Positions 5,715-16,534 of a stretch of 50,237 bases of DNA are shown here, piece by piece. The notes under the pieces are model-generated. The model did no database searches. It saw only the letters and a list, made by a program, of their open reading frames with translations, and was not told where the DNA came from. Every line of letters starts with the position of its first letter. The first letter of the stretch is position 1. This stretch comes from an uncultured Clostridia bacterium (GTDB lineage: Bacteria; Bacillota; Clostridia; Oscillospirales; Oscillospiraceae). The position numbers and the translations under genes were made by a program. Location: contig CAMOXK010000008.1 of the NCBI GenBank assembly GCA_946629065.1, positions 1-50,237 of the forward strand, in the 5' to 3' direction.

Positions 5715-5744
5715 TTGACGATACATGAGCTTTTGTTATATAAT
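5715..5744 (+). promoter_or_regulatory. Sigma-A promoter of the ribozyme / nagB-glmM operon
   Basis: TTGACG (5715-5720), 18-bp spacer, perfect TATAAT (5739-5744). Predicted transcription start is about 5751, 85 nt ahead of the predicted ribozyme cleavage site. This is one of the strongest promoters in the window by consensus match. Confidence 0.8.
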
Positions 5745-5748
5745 AAAA

Positions 5749-5784
5749 GGGTGGGTCATGAAGTTTGAGCTTTCGAACCCGCCC
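5749..5784 (+). promoter_or_regulatory. 5'-terminal leader hairpin ahead of the ribozyme
   Basis: GGGTGGGT (5749-5756) pairs with ACCCGCCC (5777-5784), eight pairs including one G-U, with a 20-nt loop. It would sit at the extreme 5' end of the transcript, just upstream of the glmS ribozyme. It may shield the 5' end or be the piece released on self-cleavage. Confidence 0.5.
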
Positions 5785-5830
5785 ACAATAGTAAAACAGC
5801 CCGAGATCTGTGCACGAGGAGCAGATGGTC

Positions 5831-6030
5831 TGTTAGCGCCTGGCCCGTAACAGGGTGACGAGGAATGGCAGTTGTCGAAAGACTCGGCGGATGCTGCCAC
5901 GGCGGCCGGAAGCCTCTTTTTCCAAAACGGAAAAGGCGGACAGCGGCGGTGCGTCGTCAGAGAGAAGGAAAAAGCGGAATCAAAACCGTAACAGAGCTTC
6001 TCTTATCACGAATCATGATCTCTTCGTGAC
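5831..6030 (+). ncRNA. glmS-type self-cleaving ribozyme (GlcN6P-responsive) in the 5' leader of a nagB operon
   Basis: The conserved core is visible in order. The cleavage-site block AGCGCC is at 5835-5840 (predicted cut between A5835 and G5836). A very short P1 follows (CCC / GGG, 5843-5854), then TGACGAGG. P2 is GGCAG (5867-5871) / CTGCC (5894-5898), enclosing TCGA and CTCGGCGGATG. Next come a P3-side hairpin (GCC...TTTTCC / GGAAAAGGC, about 5911-5937) and P4 GAGAAG (5962-5967) / CTTCTC (5997-6002), with a CGG / CCG subhairpin. The 3' signature ATCAC...ATGATC is at 6005-6020. glmS ribozymes use GlcN6P as cofactor to cut the leader and destabilise the mRNA. The unusual point is the downstream gene, which is nagB-like and not glmS. 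Confidence 0.93.
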
Positions 6031-6107
6031 ACATCTTTTTTCATTCCGCCAGTTTTGGCTTGTGTCAGCGAAGGATAATCCAAATGAAGATAAGGAGTAA
6101 GAAACAT

Positions 6108-6899
6108 ATGCGCGTTGTTATTCAGGACGATTATAATAAAATGAGCAAATGGGCAGCGGATTACATTGCTGCCAAAATCAAGGCTCACAAGGAAGACCGG
6201 CCCTTCGTCTTGGGGCTGCCCACCGGTTCCAGCCCCATCGGCGTATACAAGGAGCTAGCCCGCATGAATCAGGCGGGAGAACTTTCCTTCGCCAATGTGG
6301 TGACCTTCAATATGGATGAGTACCTGGGGCTGCCCCATGAGCACGACCAGAGCTATTGGTACTTCATGCACGACAATTTCTTCGATCATCTGGTGGACAT
6401 GAAGCCGGAGAACATCAACATTCTCAATGGCATGACCGACGATCCGGAAGGGGAGTGCGCCCGCTACGAGGAGAAGATCGCCTCCTACGGCGGCATTGAT
6501 CTCTTCATGGGTGGTATCGGTGTGGACGGGCACATCGCCTTCAATGAGCCCTACACCTCCCTCCGCTCCAGAACCGGCGTCCGTAACCTGACCACCGATA
6601 CCCGCATCGTAAACTCCCGCTTCTTCGGCAATGATCCGGAAGCAGTGCCCAGCCAGGCCCTGTCCGTGGGCGTCGGCACGGTGTTCGATTCCAAAGAGGT
6701 CCTGATCCTCATCAATGGCCACAATAAGGCCCGCGCTTTGGCTGCCACCGTGGAAGGCTCCGTCAGCCAGAAGTGGACCTGCAGTGCGCTGCAGATGCAC
6801 AACGGCGCCATCATCGCCTGCGATGAGGCCGCCTGCGGAGAGCTGACCGTGGACACCTACAAGTACTTCCTGGACATCGAGAAGAAGGAGAGACTGTAA
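6108..6899 (+). CDS. nagB: Glucosamine-6-phosphate deaminase-family enzyme (NagB-like), probably biosynthetic
   Basis: A 263-residue NagB-type isomerase/aminase interconverting GlcN6P with fructose-6-P plus NH3. E. coli catalytic residues are conserved: Asp72 = Asp70 (FNMDEY), Asp141 = Asp140, His143 = His142, Glu148 = Glu147 (DGHIAFNEP). The GlcNAc6P allosteric pocket is altered: Arg158 is Gly157, Ser151 is Thr150 and Lys160 is Arg159. The start is ATG 6108 because AAGGAG (6092-6097) is 10 nt upstream. It lies behind a GlcN6P-sensing ribozyme and 1 nt before a GlmU-like gene, with glmM next and no nagA or sugar transporter nearby. I infer that it makes GlcN6P in place of GlmS. The family call is firm; the reaction direction is inference. 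Confidence 0.93.
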   Translation: MRVVIQDDYNKMSKWAADYIAAKIKAHKEDRPFVLGLPTGSSPIGVYKELARMNQAGELSFANVVTFNMDEYLGLPHEHDQSYWYFMHDNFFDHLVDMKPENINILNGMTDDPEGECARYEEKIASYGGIDLFMGGIGVDGHIAFNEPYTSLRSRTGVRNLTTDTRIVNSRFFGNDPEAVPSQALSVGVGTVFDSKEVLILINGHNKARALAATVEGSVSQKWTCSALQMHNGAIIACDEAACGELTVDTYKYFLDIEKKERL

Positions 6900-6900
6900 G

Positions 6901-7563
6901 ATGCTGACAATCAAAGATCTCTATGATCTGGACCATACCCTGGCGGCTGATTATCTGCGTCAGTTTACCTATCCCTGGGAAGCGCTGAAGGGCATTAAGG
7001 AGATGATCCTGGCCCTCGGCCCCACGCTGGGAGAGGACTACGAGGAAGTGCAGCCCAATGTCTGGGTTCACAAGACCGCAAAGGTCTTTCCCTCCGCTTA
7101 TCTGGGCGCTCCCTGCATCATCGGACCCAACACCGAGGTGCGCCACTGCGCCTTTATCCGCGGCTCCGCTCTGGTGGGCGCTGACTGTGTGGTTGGCAAC
7201 AGCGTGGAACTGAAAAATGTGATCCTTTTCGACCATGTGCAGACTCCGCACTATAATTACGTTGGCGACAGCATCCTGGGCTATTACAGCCATATGGGCG
7301 CCGGATCCATTACCAGCAATGTGAAATCCGACAAGAAGCTGGTGGTGGTCCACAACGGCACCGAGCAGATGGAGACAGGCGTGAAGAAGTTCGGCGCCAT
7401 GCTGGGCGATTACGTGGAAGTCGGCTGCAACGCCGTCTGCAATCCCGGTACGATGATCGGCCGCCACTCCAACATCTATCCTACCTCCTGCGTGAGGGGT
7501 GTCGTTCCGGCCAATGCCATCTGGAAGGATAACGGCGTTGTTGTATTGAAGGAGGAGCGTTAA
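6901..7563 (+). CDS. Left-handed beta-helix acetyltransferase resembling the GlmU C-terminal domain
   Basis: A 220-residue protein. After a helical N-terminal ~45 residues it shows hexapeptide-repeat character (residues ~60-205). GlmU-like landmarks are the VGNSVELKN block (98-106), His117 in HYNYVGD at the position of the GlmU catalytic His (GHLTYLGD in E. coli), and GAGSITSN (133-140) matching GAGTITCN. The N-terminal uridylyltransferase (nucleotidyltransferase) domain of GlmU is absent. It would acetylate GlcN-1-P from acetyl-CoA to GlcNAc-1-P, between GlmM and a separate uridylyltransferase. It lies 1 nt after nagB and 1 nt before glmM. A different acyl acceptor is possible, but the neighbours make GlcN-1-P most likely. 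Confidence 0.82.
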   Translation: MLTIKDLYDLDHTLAADYLRQFTYPWEALKGIKEMILALGPTLGEDYEEVQPNVWVHKTAKVFPSAYLGAPCIIGPNTEVRHCAFIRGSALVGADCVVGNSVELKNVILFDHVQTPHYNYVGDSILGYYSHMGAGSITSNVKSDKKLVVVHNGTEQMETGVKKFGAMLGDYVEVGCNAVCNPGTMIGRHSNIYPTSCVRGVVPANAIWKDNGVVVLKEER

Positions 7564-7564
7564 C

Positions 7565-8911
7565 ATGGGCAAGTATTTCGGAACCGACGGCTTCCGCGGA
7601 GAGGCCAATAAAAACCTGACTTATGAGCATGCCATCCAGATCGGCCGCTTCCTGGGCTGGTACTATGGCAGCAACCAGGGCAAAAAGGCTAAAATCGTCA
7701 TCGGCAAGGACACCCGCCGCAGCTCCTATATGTTTGAGTACGCACTCTGCACCGGTCTGATGGCCAGCGGCGCTGACGCGTACATCATGCACGTCACCAC
7801 CACGCCTTCCGTCGCTTACATCACCCGTGTGGACGATTTCGACTGCGGCATCATGATCTCCGCCTCTCATAACCCCTACTACGATAACGGCATCAAGCTT
7901 CTCAACGGCAACGGCGAGAAGATGGATGAGGAGACGATTCTGAAGGTCGAGGACTTCATCGACGGAAAGATCCAGATCCCCATTGCCGAGCGTGAGAACA
8001 TCGGTCGTACCGTGGACTATGTGGCCGGCCGTAATCGCTATATCGGCCACCTGATCTCCATGAGCAAGTACAGCTTCAAGGACGTGAAGGTCGGTCTGGA
8101 CTGCGCCAACGGCGCTTCCTGGCAGATCGCAAAGGCTGTTTTCGACGCTCTGGGCGCCAAGACCTATGTCATCAACGCTGAGCCCGACGGTTACAACATC
8201 AATACCGACTGCGGCAGCACCCACATCGAGCATCTGCAGAAGTTTGTGGTGGACAATAAGCTGAATATCGGTTTCGCCTTTGATGGTGACGCGGACCGCT
8301 GCCTTGCTGTGGATGAGAAGGGCAATGTGGTTACCGGCGACCATGTGCTGTACATCTATGGCCTCTACATGAAAGAGCGGGGCAAGCTCCTGAACAACAA
8401 GGTCGTCACCACTGTGATGTCCAACTTCGGCCTGTACAAGGCCCTGGACAAGGTAGGTATCGAGTATGAAAAGACCAAGGTGGGCGACAAGTACGTTTAT
8501 GAGAACATGGTCCAGACCGGCAACCGCATTGGCGGCGAGCAAAGCGGACACACCATCTTCCTCAAGTATGAGACCACCGGCGACGGCATCCTTACCGCTC
8601 TGAAGCTGATGGAAGTGATGCTGGCCAAGGAGAAGCCCATGAGCGAATTGGCGGCTCCCGTGGTGTTCTATCCCCAGGTGCTGAAGAACGTGCGCGTCAA
8701 GTCCAAACCAGACGCGCAGAACGATCCCGATGTGCAGGCCGCGGTGAAGAAGGTCGCGGAAGCGCTGGGCGATACGGGCCGCATCCTTGTGCGTGAATCC
8801 GGCACGGAGCCGGTGATCCGCGTTATGGTGGAAGCGGAGACCGACGAGATCTGCGAAAAGTATGTGGATGATGTGATCCGCGTAATCACCGAGAAGGGAC
8901 ATCTGGCCTGA
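7565..8911 (+). CDS. glmM: Phosphoglucosamine mutase
   Basis: A 448-residue alpha-D-phosphohexomutase converting GlcN6P to GlcN-1-P. All four family loops are seen: the active phosphoserine loop ISASHNP (Ser101), the metal loop DGDADRC (about residue 240), the sugar loop GGEQSGH (about 322), and the phosphate loop RESGTEPVIR near the C terminus. Family-typical length is 445-450. It is the third gene of the ribozyme-controlled operon, 1 nt after the acetyltransferase and closed by a strong terminator. Its assignment as glmM over a phosphomannomutase rests on the amino-sugar operon. Confidence 0.93.
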   Translation: MGKYFGTDGFRGEANKNLTYEHAIQIGRFLGWYYGSNQGKKAKIVIGKDTRRSSYMFEYALCTGLMASGADAYIMHVTTTPSVAYITRVDDFDCGIMISASHNPYYDNGIKLLNGNGEKMDEETILKVEDFIDGKIQIPIAERENIGRTVDYVAGRNRYIGHLISMSKYSFKDVKVGLDCANGASWQIAKAVFDALGAKTYVINAEPDGYNINTDCGSTHIEHLQKFVVDNKLNIGFAFDGDADRCLAVDEKGNVVTGDHVLYIYGLYMKERGKLLNNKVVTTVMSNFGLYKALDKVGIEYEKTKVGDKYVYENMVQTGNRIGGEQSGHTIFLKYETTGDGILTALKLMEVMLAKEKPMSELAAPVVFYPQVLKNVRVKSKPDAQNDPDVQAAVKKVAEALGDTGRILVRESGTEPVIRVMVEAETDEICEKYVDDVIRVITEKGHLA

Positions 8912-8926
8912 TTCCAAAATCTGATG

Positions 8927-8959
8927 AAAAAGGGAATTCCGTTGGGAATTCCCTTTTTT
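8927..8959 (+). terminator. Intrinsic terminator of the nagB-glmM operon
   Basis: Stem AAAAAGGGAATTCC (8927-8940) / GGAATTCCCTTTTT (8945-8958), loop GTTG, ending in a run of six T. Confidence 0.9.
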
Positions 8960-12483: not shown

Positions 12484-14646
12484 TTATTTCATGCCGCGGA
12501 AGTAGCGGAAGCGGATCTTACCAAAGAGATCAAGGGTGGGATAGATGGTATCGATCAGCGTCTGCAATTCCTTCTTGCACTGTTCCAACTCCTCAGGCTG
12601 GATGCTGTGGGGACTGAAGGTGACCTTCTCCGCCTTCTGCACGATGACAGGGGGAATCTCGCTGCCAAAGGCGGCGGCTTTCTTGGCATAACGCCAGCAG
12701 GCAATGACAGCCCGGCGGCCGTCAGTGTGCTGTGTCTGGCTAAGGAAGCGGGCACGGGCCATGCCATACCACAGGTAGAAGAGCAGGACCAGGGCCGGAA
12801 GGATCAACAGCAGCCACCAGGGGAAGCCGCTTCCGGGCTCGGGAACGGGCTCCGGTTCCGGCGTTTCGGTAGGTCCGGGACCACCGCCGCCACCGCCCTG
12901 TTCCTGCATGCCCGAGGCCGGGTCTGGACTGGGAGAAGGCTGGAGTTCCGGCTCCGGCATAGGGCTGGGGGAGGGCGTGGCATCCGGCAGCGCAGTGGCC
13001 AGACCGCCCCGTGCAGTGACCTCCACGGGGATCCAGCCCAGGCCGTCCTGGTAGACCTCCACCCAGGCATGAGCATCACCGGCCACAACGTCGGTATAGA
13101 AGCCTCCGCGGGTTTCCACAGCAAAGCCTTCTGTCACTCTGGCAGGAATGCCAAAGGAGCGGTAAAGCACAGCTGCGGCTGTAGCATAGTGGATGCAGTA
13201 GCCGTGATGGGATTCGGTGAGAAAATAGATGGCGTAATCGGTGGAGGGATAGGGCCCGGTCGTCAGGTCATACTCGCCGCTTCCGCTGACGTAATCCGCA
13301 ATGGACTGGACCAGGTTGGGATCATCGCCCCGGATGCCGGCGTCCTCACAGAGGTGGAGGGCCGCGGCACGGGTGGCTTCCGGCAGGCGGGTATAAACGC
13401 TGTGGGCGTGGGAGCGATACTTGACTTCGGCGGCAGCAGCCTCCGCAGGCAGGACCAGGGTATCCATGCTGCCCTTATAGTCGATGTAGCTCACGCGATA
13501 GCTGGTCTGGTCATCGGCAGTGACGGAGATGTCAGAGCCGGAGGAGACAGCGGCATAATAGGGGATACAGAGCGCACTGAGATCCATAAAACTGCGGATA
13601 TCCAGATCCCGCTTCACGCCCTCGGGGGAGAGCTCGGCGGCAAAGGCGGTAAAGGGCAGTGAAGAGCCGGAACTCAGCTCCTCAGCAGGACGCCAGCCCG
13701 TACCGGTATAATCACCGAAGGACTGGGTGCGCAGATAGAGCCTCCCTGAAGTCTGCGCGCGTACCTGCATCAGACGAAGGTCCGCGTGTTCCGCGTCAAA
13801 CTCGGTTTCCAACTGCATGCTGTCATTGTTGTCCCAGGAAGGTTTGAACTGGGAGCGGGGAGCGCTGGTGCTGCTGGGCTGATCGGGATCAGCGGTAAAA
13901 GCCTGCTGCTCCTTGGTTTTGCCGGTGAAAAGATCAAAATAGTGGCTGAGTTTATCGAAATGCTCCGCCAGTTCCTGGTCCCGCGGGGTGTATTCGTATT
14001 TTGCGGGGTCGAAGCGGACCAACAGCCCGCCCAGGATCAAAGCAATGGGCAGGACGCAACAGAGAACGGTCCGTCCCAGGCTGCCGTCCGGATGATAGCC
14101 TACGCCGCCCACCAGCAGCAGGAACCAGAACAGCAACATTCCCGCACTGGCGATGGCGGGCATTTCACCGTTTACCATGGCGCAGGCTGTGAAGATGGGG
14201 ACGGTCTCCAGCAGGGCAAGGGTGATGCGCATGCTGCGGGAGGTCAGCGCGGTGGAGAGATAGGCAGCCAGCAGAAAACCCAAAAACAAAAGCACAAGAG
14301 AATGGGAGTTTGCCGCGTTCAGATAGGGGTAGCTTTCTCCCGGATGAATGATGTGAGTATAGAAGGCGCCGGAGATATGATCGATCAGATCCTGCAGCTG
14401 CAGCATGGGATTGCGGCCATAAAAGCGATAGGCCAGAAACAGCAGCACAGCGGCGATGGGCATACCGATCCAGAAGCCGCGGCGGAAGGAGCCTGCCACC
14501 CAGAGAAGGACGCAGAGCAGCAACAGCCACAGCCAAAGAGACCGGTCATAGCGGCATTGAAAGCTGCTTGCAATGATGGAAAGCAGACTGAAAATGCCGA
14601 GGCAGAGCAGGAAGAGGTTTGCCAGACGATTGCCGAGACGGCTCAC
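12484..14646 (-). CDS. Multipass membrane transglutaminase-like protein (TgpA type)
   Basis: 720 residues. About six transmembrane helices fill the N-terminal ~210 residues. An extracytoplasmic transglutaminase-like domain lies at about 415-540, with catalytic Cys in GYCIHYATA, His in DAHAWVEVY and an acidic residue in WIPVEVT. A Pro/Glu/Gly-rich linker (about 545-610), a further transmembrane helix (WWLLLILPALVLLFYLWY) and a cytosolic tail follow. It starts with GTG overlapping the upstream TGA. MoxR / DUF58 / transglutaminase triads are a common conserved set of unclear function, perhaps envelope protein processing or cross-linking. Confidence 0.88.
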   Translation of the reverse strand: MSRLGNRLANLFLLCLGIFSLLSIIASSFQCRYDRSLWLWLLLLCVLLWVAGSFRRGFWIGMPIAAVLLFLAYRFYGRNPMLQLQDLIDHISGAFYTHIIHPGESYPYLNAANSHSLVLLFLGFLLAAYLSTALTSRSMRITLALLETVPIFTACAMVNGEMPAIASAGMLLFWFLLLVGGVGYHPDGSLGRTVLCCVLPIALILGGLLVRFDPAKYEYTPRDQELAEHFDKLSHYFDLFTGKTKEQQAFTADPDQPSSTSAPRSQFKPSWDNNDSMQLETEFDAEHADLRLMQVRAQTSGRLYLRTQSFGDYTGTGWRPAEELSSGSSLPFTAFAAELSPEGVKRDLDIRSFMDLSALCIPYYAAVSSGSDISVTADDQTSYRVSYIDYKGSMDTLVLPAEAAAAEVKYRSHAHSVYTRLPEATRAAALHLCEDAGIRGDDPNLVQSIADYVSGSGEYDLTTGPYPSTDYAIYFLTESHHGYCIHYATAAAVLYRSFGIPARVTEGFAVETRGGFYTDVVAGDAHAWVEVYQDGLGWIPVEVTARGGLATALPDATPSPSPMPEPELQPSPSPDPASGMQEQGGGGGGPGPTETPEPEPVPEPGSGFPWWLLLILPALVLLFYLWYGMARARFLSQTQHTDGRRAVIACWRYAKKAAAFGSEIPPVIVQKAEKVTFSPHSIQPEELEQCKKELQTLIDTIYPTLDLFGKIRFRYFRGMK

Positions 14647-15587
14647 GGTACGCTCACCTCCCCGTCGGTTACGATAAAGATGGCGCGGGCTCCGGCCGGG
14701 TCAAAGGGGCAGGGCTTGTCCATGGGGTTTGCCAGCATGGTGCAGAGAGCGTCGATAGTCTCCGCCTCGTTGGTGACATCATACAGGGAATCGGCCACGA
14801 TGGTGTGGGGAATCTCCCGCATGCAGAGCTCCAGGGACATCCAATACAGCACTTCCAAACCCCGGTCCTCCTTGCCGATCCGGCCAAGGACCAGGAAGAC
14901 GTTTTGATTGGCGTTTATAAGAGGCTCCCGGACGATGACTTCATCGGTCTTGGAACTGAGCTTCCAGTGGATGCTGTTTACCGTGTCGCCGGGTCGATAC
15001 TCCCGCAGATCATGCTCCTCGGAATAGCCGCCGCCGTATTTGGGCTTGAGCTGCTCGGCCGTGTCCAGGGCAAGCTCAAAGTCCGGAGGAACGGCGGGCC
15101 CGTTTGCCACGGGAAGCACCGTGCAGATCACGCTCTCCGGGCATTTGCGACGAAGCTTGAGAAAGCCCAGCAGATCCCGGACCTCCACCCGGACAACACG
15201 GCACAGGAGCTGACCGCAATAATCCGTTGGCAGGGGAAGCTCCCCGCGGCTGGTGACCAAACCCTGGTAGTGGAAGCGGTCCTTTTTCACATCGCCGGTG
15301 AAGCGGTTTTCCACCTCCAGCCAGACGGAGACCCGGTGCAGCGGCAGGAGGGAACGGTTCAGGAAACGAACCGTGAGCTTCCCCTCCGCATTCCGGGTCA
15401 GGGTGGGGGCCACTTCCATCTCCAGCTTCAGGCGAAGCATGGAGGGCAGGCTCATCAACAGCAGTACCGGTGGGACCACGAGCGCACAGGCAAAGAGATA
15501 GGAGCCCAGCCAGCCCACATAAGCCATGCGGAACAGCCACAGCGCAAGCAGGATCAACAGGTAGAGCAATAAAGATAAGGTCGGCAT
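14643..15587 (-). CDS. DUF58 membrane protein
   Basis: 314 residues. Two hydrophobic segments at the N terminus are followed by a long beta-rich domain and the DUF58 core with YRPGDTVNSIHWK near residue 205, then a von Willebrand A-like C-terminal part. ATG 15587 follows the moxR stop by 2 nt; a TTG at 15593 that would overlap the stop is an alternative. It is a partner of the MoxR ATPase in most genomes. The biochemical role is unknown. Confidence 0.87.
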   Translation of the reverse strand: MPTLSLLLYLLILLALWLFRMAYVGWLGSYLFACALVVPPVLLLMSLPSMLRLKLEMEVAPTLTRNAEGKLTVRFLNRSLLPLHRVSVWLEVENRFTGDVKKDRFHYQGLVTSRGELPLPTDYCGQLLCRVVRVEVRDLLGFLKLRRKCPESVICTVLPVANGPAVPPDFELALDTAEQLKPKYGGGYSEEHDLREYRPGDTVNSIHWKLSSKTDEVIVREPLINANQNVFLVLGRIGKEDRGLEVLYWMSLELCMREIPHTIVADSLYDVTNEAETIDALCTMLANPMDKPCPFDPAGARAIFIVTDGEVSVP

Positions 15588-15589
15588 GA

Positions 15590-16534
15590 TCAACGGATGG
15601 CCGGGGCGGGAACGGAGTTAAAGAGCTCCTCCAGCACTTGGAAGCGGTCTTCGGACCGGGCAAGCTCCGGCGCCCAGATCAGCCGGTGCTCGATGCAATC
15701 GCTAAAGACAAAACGCACGTCCCGGGGCAGGACATAGTCCCGGCCCTGGATCCAGGCGGTGGCCTTGGCCAGAGAGGTCAGGGCCAGAGAGGCACGGGGG
15801 CTGGCACCCTGGAGGATCCGGGGATCCTTACGGGTGGTCTCGCAGAGGGAGACGATGTATTCGATGACGCTGTCCTTGATAAAGACGCCGTCGGCTTCTT
15901 TGCGGATCTGCATCATCTCATCCCGGCTTACCACCTGCTCCACATCCTCGGGGCTCATACCGCTCTGCTTGCGGCGGATCATTTCAATGGCGTCCTCATG
16001 TTCGGGATAGCCGATGGAGAGTCGGAGCATGAAGCGGTCCATCTGGGAGTCGGGCAGCATCTGAGTGCCCTTGGCGCCGGTGGGATTCTGGGTGGCGATG
16101 ACGACGAAAGGCTGGGGGACAGGGTAGGTCTTGTTGTCCACCGTGACCTCGCCCTCTTCCATGGCCTGAAGCAGAGCCGACTGGGTGCGGCTGGTGGCGC
16201 GATTCAGCTCGTCCGCCAGGAAAAGGTTGCAGAGCACGGCGCCCTTCTGATAGCGCATCTCGCCGCTGTTCTTATCGTAAATGGAAAAGCCGGTGATGTC
16301 GGAGGGCAGCACGTCCGGCGTGAACTGGACGCGGTTATAGTCCAGACCCAGAGCCTTGGAGAGGGACACAGCCATGGTGGTTTTGCCGACGCCGGGGATG
16401 TCCTCCATCAGGATGTGGCCGCCTGCGATCACCGCAAGCAGGATCTTGATCAGCACTTCGTCCTTGCCGACGATGGCTTTGCTGATCTCCCGCACGATCT
16501 GTTTGGCTTTTCCAACGGAATTGATGGTAGTCAT
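15590..16534 (-). CDS. MoxR-type AAA+ ATPase
   Basis: A 314-residue AAA+ protein. Walker A is GVGKTTMA near residue 46, Walker B LFLADELNRA near 108, sensor-1 ATQNPTG near 150, and an arginine-rich C-terminal lid. MoxR proteins act as chaperone-like ATPases, often loading metal or activating von Willebrand A-domain partners such as the adjacent DUF58 protein. It is first in a three-gene minus-strand operon. The start is preceded by GGAGG 5 nt upstream. Confidence 0.93.
   Translation of the reverse strand: MTTINSVGKAKQIVREISKAIVGKDEVLIKILLAVIAGGHILMEDIPGVGKTTMAVSLSKALGLDYNRVQFTPDVLPSDITGFSIYDKNSGEMRYQKGAVLCNLFLADELNRATSRTQSALLQAMEEGEVTVDNKTYPVPQPFVVIATQNPTGAKGTQMLPDSQMDRFMLRLSIGYPEHEDAIEMIRRKQSGMSPEDVEQVVSRDEMMQIRKEADGVFIKDSVIEYIVSLCETTRKDPRILQGASPRASLALTSLAKATAWIQGRDYVLPRDVRFVFSDCIEHRLIWAPELARSEDRFQVLEELFNSVPAPAIR

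Follow-up and report, generated by a model that had tools for sequence, protein, structure and literature searches.

Why would a self-cleaving RNA of the glmS class, an off-switch triggered by glucosamine-6-phosphate (GlcN6P), stand in front of nagB, a gene whose product is usually a GlcN6P-consuming deaminase? The question is raised by a 50,237-nt stretch of DNA from an uncultured Clostridia bacterium (hereafter, the window), which is contig C8 of a draft genome of 2.37 Mb in 203 contigs that is 67% complete and has uncultured rumen Clostridia among its relatives. GlmS is regarded as the physiological entry to bacterial uridine diphosphate N-acetylglucosamine (UDP-GlcNAc); the glmS ribozyme is seen as a switch reserved for GlmS and as a drug target. 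In the window, the ribozyme leads an operon of nagB, an acetyltransferase gene and glmM, and an intact glmS lies elsewhere in the genome. The best fit to these sequences is a dual route, in which NagB would make GlcN6P with free ammonia and GlmS would make it from glutamine. We hold with moderate confidence that the ribozyme exerts feedback on an anabolic NagB operon beside a separate, glutamine-fed GlmS, a statement in which the direction of NagB, the activity of the ribozyme and the nitrogen control of glmS are what we infer.

A glmS-class ribozyme leads a nagB-acetyltransferase-glmM operon

The Rfam model RF00234 has a sole match above its gathering score in the window, at 5824-5980 on the plus strand (49.6 bits, gathering score 37, E 1.3e-8). 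A covariance model (R1) built from 31 ribozymes of the host genus lengthens the element to 5824-6014 (+) with 150.3 bits, a score obtained with the window's own sequence among the 31; the lower RF00234 score probably reflects extra sequence inserted into one of the helices. The core blocks AGCGCC, GACGAGG, TCGA and TCGGCGG are invariant across 52 aligned ribozymes of the genus and the order, and RNAalifold on the 31 genus sequences, which are close relatives, yields 33 pairs, 13 of them with compensatory changes on both sides. The RF00234 score, the invariant core, the covarying pairs and the R1 score exclude a chance match. An earlier, sequence-only reading had recognized a glmS ribozyme in this leader, and both models bear it out: its interval of 5740-6107 contains a significant RF00234 match and spans the entire element, and its cleavage position, A5835/G5836, is the same site that we predict from the conserved core. 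The promoter that it had seen ahead of the leader is a sigma-70-like site (TTGACG-18-TATAAT, 5715-5744, +) with 11 of 12 consensus bases, a consensus match only, for a type of site found once against 0.4 expected from shuffling.

Behind the ribozyme and a ribosome-binding site read directly from the sequence (AAGGAG, 6092-6097, +) lies nagB (6108-6899, +), which encodes a 263-aa member of the GlcN6P deaminase/isomerase family (TIGR00502, 376.8 bits, cut-off 236.9) and is the proposed ammonia-dependent GlcN6P synthase. Its start is taken as the ATG at 6108 behind AAGGAG; the list of open reading frames (ORFs) begins it at TTG 6060. It is followed by a 220-aa GlmU-type left-handed-beta-helix acetyltransferase gene (6901-7563, +) and by glmM, encoding a 448-aa phosphoglucosamine mutase (7565-8911, +; TIGR01455, 547.8 bits, cut-off 447.55), with 1 nt at each junction; the stretch originally singled out ends at 8959, 48 nt beyond the glmM stop. 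NagB and GlmM score above the equivalog cut-offs of the NCBIfam hidden Markov models (HMMs), and these models and the coordinates confirm the three genes and their spacing as first read. For the acetyltransferase, the match to the full-length model TIGR03992 of archaeal-type GlmU is confined to the C-terminal half of that model (142 bits, under the cut-off), and the nearest solved relatives are 5z09 and 2ggo. It thus carries no nucleotidyltransferase domain and corresponds to the acetyltransferase half of bifunctional GlmU, which has uridylyltransferase and acetyltransferase domains; this protein is probably a glucosamine-1-phosphate (GlcN1P) acetyltransferase. Taken together, the identity of the ribozyme and of the operon is secure at the sequence level.

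The ribozyme appears to have changed genes in the host genus

Of 463 glmS ribozymes, McCown et al. (2011) reportedly found only two outside glmS mRNAs. We scanned 149 relatives with RF00234, namely 91 genomes of the same genus, which alone represents the host's family, and 58 from different families within the order. Hits arose at 55 places in 53 genomes, and at every one we checked which gene follows. The 36 genus hits, in 35 genomes, have nagB (22), the acetyltransferase gene (13) or glmM (1) as their first gene; nagB belongs to the ribozyme-led unit in 34 of them, and none stands ahead of glmS. In contrast, 17 of the 19 hits in other families precede glmS, the remaining two having no plausible gene on the ribozyme strand (Fisher p 2.5e-12 for the contrast, between related genomes and not independent events). 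R1 adds a further genus genome (G044), with a ribozyme upstream of its nagB, clipped by the contig end.

Two further samples extend this picture. The best 80 NagB relatives among the matches listed come mostly from rumen or gut Clostridia assemblies and include one isolate, Ruminococcaceae bacterium P7, whose locus (L062) runs ribozyme-nagB-acetyltransferase-glmM; at least some of their genomes are shared with the 149 relatives, so the counts are not additive. At these 80 loci, an R1 ribozyme lies upstream of nagB in 36, and glmM and/or the acetyltransferase gene is in view in 47. Among 394 genomes drawn evenly across the order and scanned with R1, scores above 130 bits occur only in the window genome, in G415 and G519 (other genera of the host's family) and in G456 (another family), and in the latter three the ribozyme precedes nagB. 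These distributions suggest that the ribozyme appears to have changed genes in the host genus and now sits on the nagB unit instead of glmS.

Some placements stand apart. In G456, the proteins of the ribozyme-nagB-acetyltransferase-glmM locus are 83-90% identical to those of the window, by transfer or misbinning. NagB relatives at 87, 86, 79 and 70% identity (L100, L109, L112 and L136) come from assemblies that bear the names Spirochaetales or Flexilinea, a sign of either transfer or mislabelling. One genus genome (G083) has two ribozymes, one ahead of nagB (L046) and one ahead of glmM (L049); with 8% contamination, it may represent two strains. Finally, in three genomes of another genus, g18, a glmS-class ribozyme (L013, L014 and L207) is followed by no plausible same-strand gene within about 1.5 kb. 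A promoter-like site TTGACA-17-TATACT lies upstream (scored in L013 and L207, seen by eye in L014) and a hairpin lies behind, scored as terminator-like on the ribozyme strand only in L013; these are possibly free-standing GlcN6P-responsive RNAs.

A separate glmS without ribozyme lies beside nitrogen genes

The earlier reading had cast NagB as the source of GlcN6P under product feedback, on a route independent of glutamine. The comparative evidence below favours the synthetic direction; the implied idea that NagB replaces an absent GlmS is not supported, because the genome holds an intact, ribozyme-free glmS at C6:16185-18002 (791.9 bits). A gap of about 15 nt separates this gene from a preceding type III glutamine synthetase gene, and a divergent LysR gene, pyrG and guaA adjoin. 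In the 67% of the genome represented, we found no second ribozyme, on glmS, nor the combination of a glmS carrying its own ribozyme with clear deaminating use of nagB.

Similar neighbourhoods recur in the genus. We examined 38 glmS loci, the host's and 37 further; they come from 37 genomes, out of 71 in the genus counted as glmS-positive, and the R1 scan found a ribozyme at none of the 38. Genes for glutamine synthetase, Amt or ANTAR proteins are neighbours in 24 of them, and some nitrogen, glutamine-amidotransferase or purine gene is nearby in 31. None of the nitrogen genes of these neighbourhoods was seen in a scan of 119 NagB or ribozyme loci (the 80 NagB loci, the 36 genus ribozyme loci and three ribozyme-glmS loci of other families), many of which have flanks of only 1.5-3 kb. 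Of the 35 ribozyme genomes, eight have no detected glmS and six no nagA match; G077 (94% complete) is the sole genome above 90% completeness that has the ribozyme operon with both glmS and nagA undetected, and true glmS loss in single cases is plausible. Type III glutamine synthetase is present in nine of 11 glmS-less genomes examined, and 11 loci from glmS-less genomes show no glmS beside it, although these may be another copy of the synthetase gene and one (L200) is cut by the contig end.

Neighbours and residues of NagB favour the synthetic direction

The neighbours of NagB, GlmM and the acetyltransferase, catalyse the next steps of UDP-GlcNAc synthesis. In two loci nagB even shares an apparent operon, on one strand, with glmS: the order is ribozyme-glmM-nagB-glmS in L116 and nagB-acetyltransferase-glmM-glmS in L105, where the last two aligned ends are about 25 nt apart. 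Because nagB and glmS would be co-expressed there, a deaminase role would amount to a wasteful futile cycle. Additionally, 22 of 34 genus genomes considered encode a different, shorter NagB no more than 300 nt from glmM, and in the 12 loci chosen for that adjacency (L210-L221) it heads a nagB-glmM-acetyltransferase row in all 12, with no ribozyme core in view in any. The occurrence of two NagB types at one position suggests a demand for the activity at that place. Where nagB adjoins nagA, in G006, G035 and G039, it is of a third, mid-scoring type.

The nearest solved relatives of the window NagB are 7lqm (E 1.9e-97) and E. coli NagB 1cd5 (E 1.6e-93), of the same family and aligned over the full length, and among solved enzymes it resembles the hexameric more than the monomeric ones. 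It keeps the equivalents of D72, D141, H143 and E148, the catalytic residues in E. coli numbering, and has Gly and Arg in place of Arg158 and Lys160, which lie at the E. coli site for N-acetylglucosamine-6-phosphate (GlcNAc6P). Across the strong NagB family, 114 of 115 sequences have this Gly/Arg pair with the four catalytic residues kept, all 70 ribozyme-linked NagBs among them; the E. coli pair is not found in monomeric NagBs either. With this allosteric pair replaced, activation by GlcNAc6P, a catabolic signal, has probably been lost. Taken together, neighbours and residues make it likely that NagB runs in the synthetic direction.

Evidence on the other side and alternative explanations

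Several observations weigh against this reading. Most genomes, the host's included, retain glmS: it scores above cut-off in 38 of the 50 genomes of the NagB-locus sample, and Ruminococcaceae bacterium P7 has two such genes. Among the 91 genus genomes glmS is undetected in 20 and glmM in nine (p 0.04), and at completeness of at least 90% the figures are seven and two of 35 (p 0.15), which point only weakly to glmS loss beyond the background of assembly incompleteness; after this control by glmM, glmS absence was too weak to serve as chief proof and was dropped. Nitrogen control of glmS is suggested by gene neighbourhood, and seven of the 38 glmS loci lack any nitrogen, glutamine-amidotransferase or purine neighbour. 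Lone NagBs (L119-L135) have the Arg158/Lys160 change too; it marks the family, not the operon, so loss of the pair was set aside as an operon-specific trait. Moreover, most genomes, including the host's, still have nagA; this gene is in view of a ribozyme-free NagB of the strong family in L134, and lies divergent to one in L227 (G074). In the host, nagA lies on C83 beside a kinase-like ORF, and C51 has a NagB-like ORF beside a ROK-like kinase ORF (both kinases named by eye); the C51 protein has Asn and Gln at the catalytic Asp141 and Glu148 and may not be a deaminase, so that the operon NagB could also serve catabolism. Finally, Akkermansia muciniphila, which has no glmS, is reported to have a NagB that aminates poorly (Km 41 mM for ammonium and 5.5 mM for fructose-6-phosphate), an activity judged not physiological, and its cells require N-acetylglucosamine (PMC5902328).

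The alternative that survives best is that NagB is an ordinary deaminase, which high GlcN6P shuts off, hoarding GlcN6P for the wall, and which drains GlcN6P at low levels or under strong expression, as positive feedback or overflow. The equivalog-level match to the deaminase family fits this, as do the nagA gene in the genome and the C51 protein lacking two catalytic residues, and deamination is the usual direction, in Akkermansia too (PMC5902328). However, a GlcN6P-triggered off-switch on a GlcN6P consumer reverses the usual logic, nagB is grouped with glmM and the acetyltransferase gene and, in L105 and L116, with glmS, and nagA is in view in just one of the 119 scanned loci, L134, within their often short flanks. 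We regard an ordinary deaminase as unlikely.

Less probable still, and improbable in our judgement, is that the ribozyme serves glmM and the acetyltransferase gene as general UDP-GlcNAc feedback, with nagB a passenger trimming surplus GlcN6P. Two loci have the required form, a ribozyme followed by the acetyltransferase gene and glmM (L025) or by glmM (L049) with no nagB in view, but the presence of nagB in nearly every genus unit argues against it, and at 13 of the 36 loci the ribozyme is followed, as far as seen, by nagB and no other gene of the set; in five of these the view is short, the contig ending inside nagB in L051 and about 0.7 kb past it being shown in L019, L021, L023 and L026. That the leader is a decayed, inactive ribozyme is hardly credible: the window ranks fourth lowest of the 36 genus hits by RF00234 and the two lowest (G043 and G066) fall slightly under the gathering score, but the invariant core blocks, the compensated pairs and the score with R1, of which the window is a member, speak for a maintained element.

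Elsewhere in the window, three ORFs stand in a row on the minus strand (12484-16534): a large one that probably has a transglutaminase-like domain, one of DUF58-like type and one for a MoxR-like ATPase, all named by eye from their translations.

A proposed dual route to GlcN6P

We propose that NagB would aminate fructose-6-phosphate with free ammonia to GlcN6P, and that GlmM and the GlcN1P acetyltransferase would draw this reaction forward. At high GlcN6P, the leader would be cut at A5835/G5836, and the resulting 5'-OH mRNA would be degraded, presumably by RNase J, the enzyme that breaks down the 5'-OH product of glmS mRNA cleavage in B. subtilis and whose gene is present in the host genome (637.6 bits). 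When ammonia is scarce, glutamine synthetase and the ribozyme-free GlmS would supply GlcN6P from glutamine. The pair would thus combine a low-affinity ammonia route with a high-affinity glutamine route, comparable to glutamate dehydrogenase (GDH) versus glutamine synthetase-glutamate synthase (GS-GOGAT) or AsnA versus AsnB. Since rumen ammonia is usually millimolar, the NagB route would be favoured there. A more specific version, which we put somewhat short of an even chance, has a dedicated ammonia-dependent NagB under glmS-ribozyme feedback and a GlmS freed of the ribozyme, placed in a glutamine synthetase cluster for nitrogen starvation and lost in some genomes such as G077, where NagB would then be the only hexosamine entry.

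The components resemble known systems in part. The glmS ribozymes that precede glmS in B. subtilis and C. difficile belong to the same RNA class and agree in core, in predicted ligand and in the logic of an off-switch (PMC6171935, PMC11477304). In contrast, the ribozyme described here leads nagB, the acetyltransferase gene and glmM and departs from the usual placement before glmS, which is typical of the class and not defining. An anabolic precedent for the enzyme is the GlcN6P deaminase of Giardia lamblia, described as forming GlcN6P from fructose-6-phosphate and ammonia and as unaffected by GlcNAc6P (PMC4281351). Giardia is a eukaryote and the sections consulted mention no ribozyme (PMC4281351), whereas the present system is bacterial, has a feedback RNA and usually has glmS too. 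The Akkermansia NagB is likewise without a GlcNAc6P response, and the part of that report consulted mentions no ribozyme or glm operon (PMC5902328). We came across no account of nagB under a glmS ribozyme in the literature covered, which included parts of PMC11602151, PMC2258182, PMC11477304, PMC6171935, PMC5902328, PMC9812318 and PMC4281351 and few subscription papers.

Both the RNA class and the fold of the enzyme family are known, and it is their pairing that is new. The ribozyme has apparently moved to another enzyme across a genus, and a riboswitch can here be used as evidence for the direction of an enzyme. For ammonia-rich guts, a dual ammonia and glutamine route to wall precursors is predicted, and whether a NagB from bacteria can run in reverse, a long-standing question, becomes directly testable.

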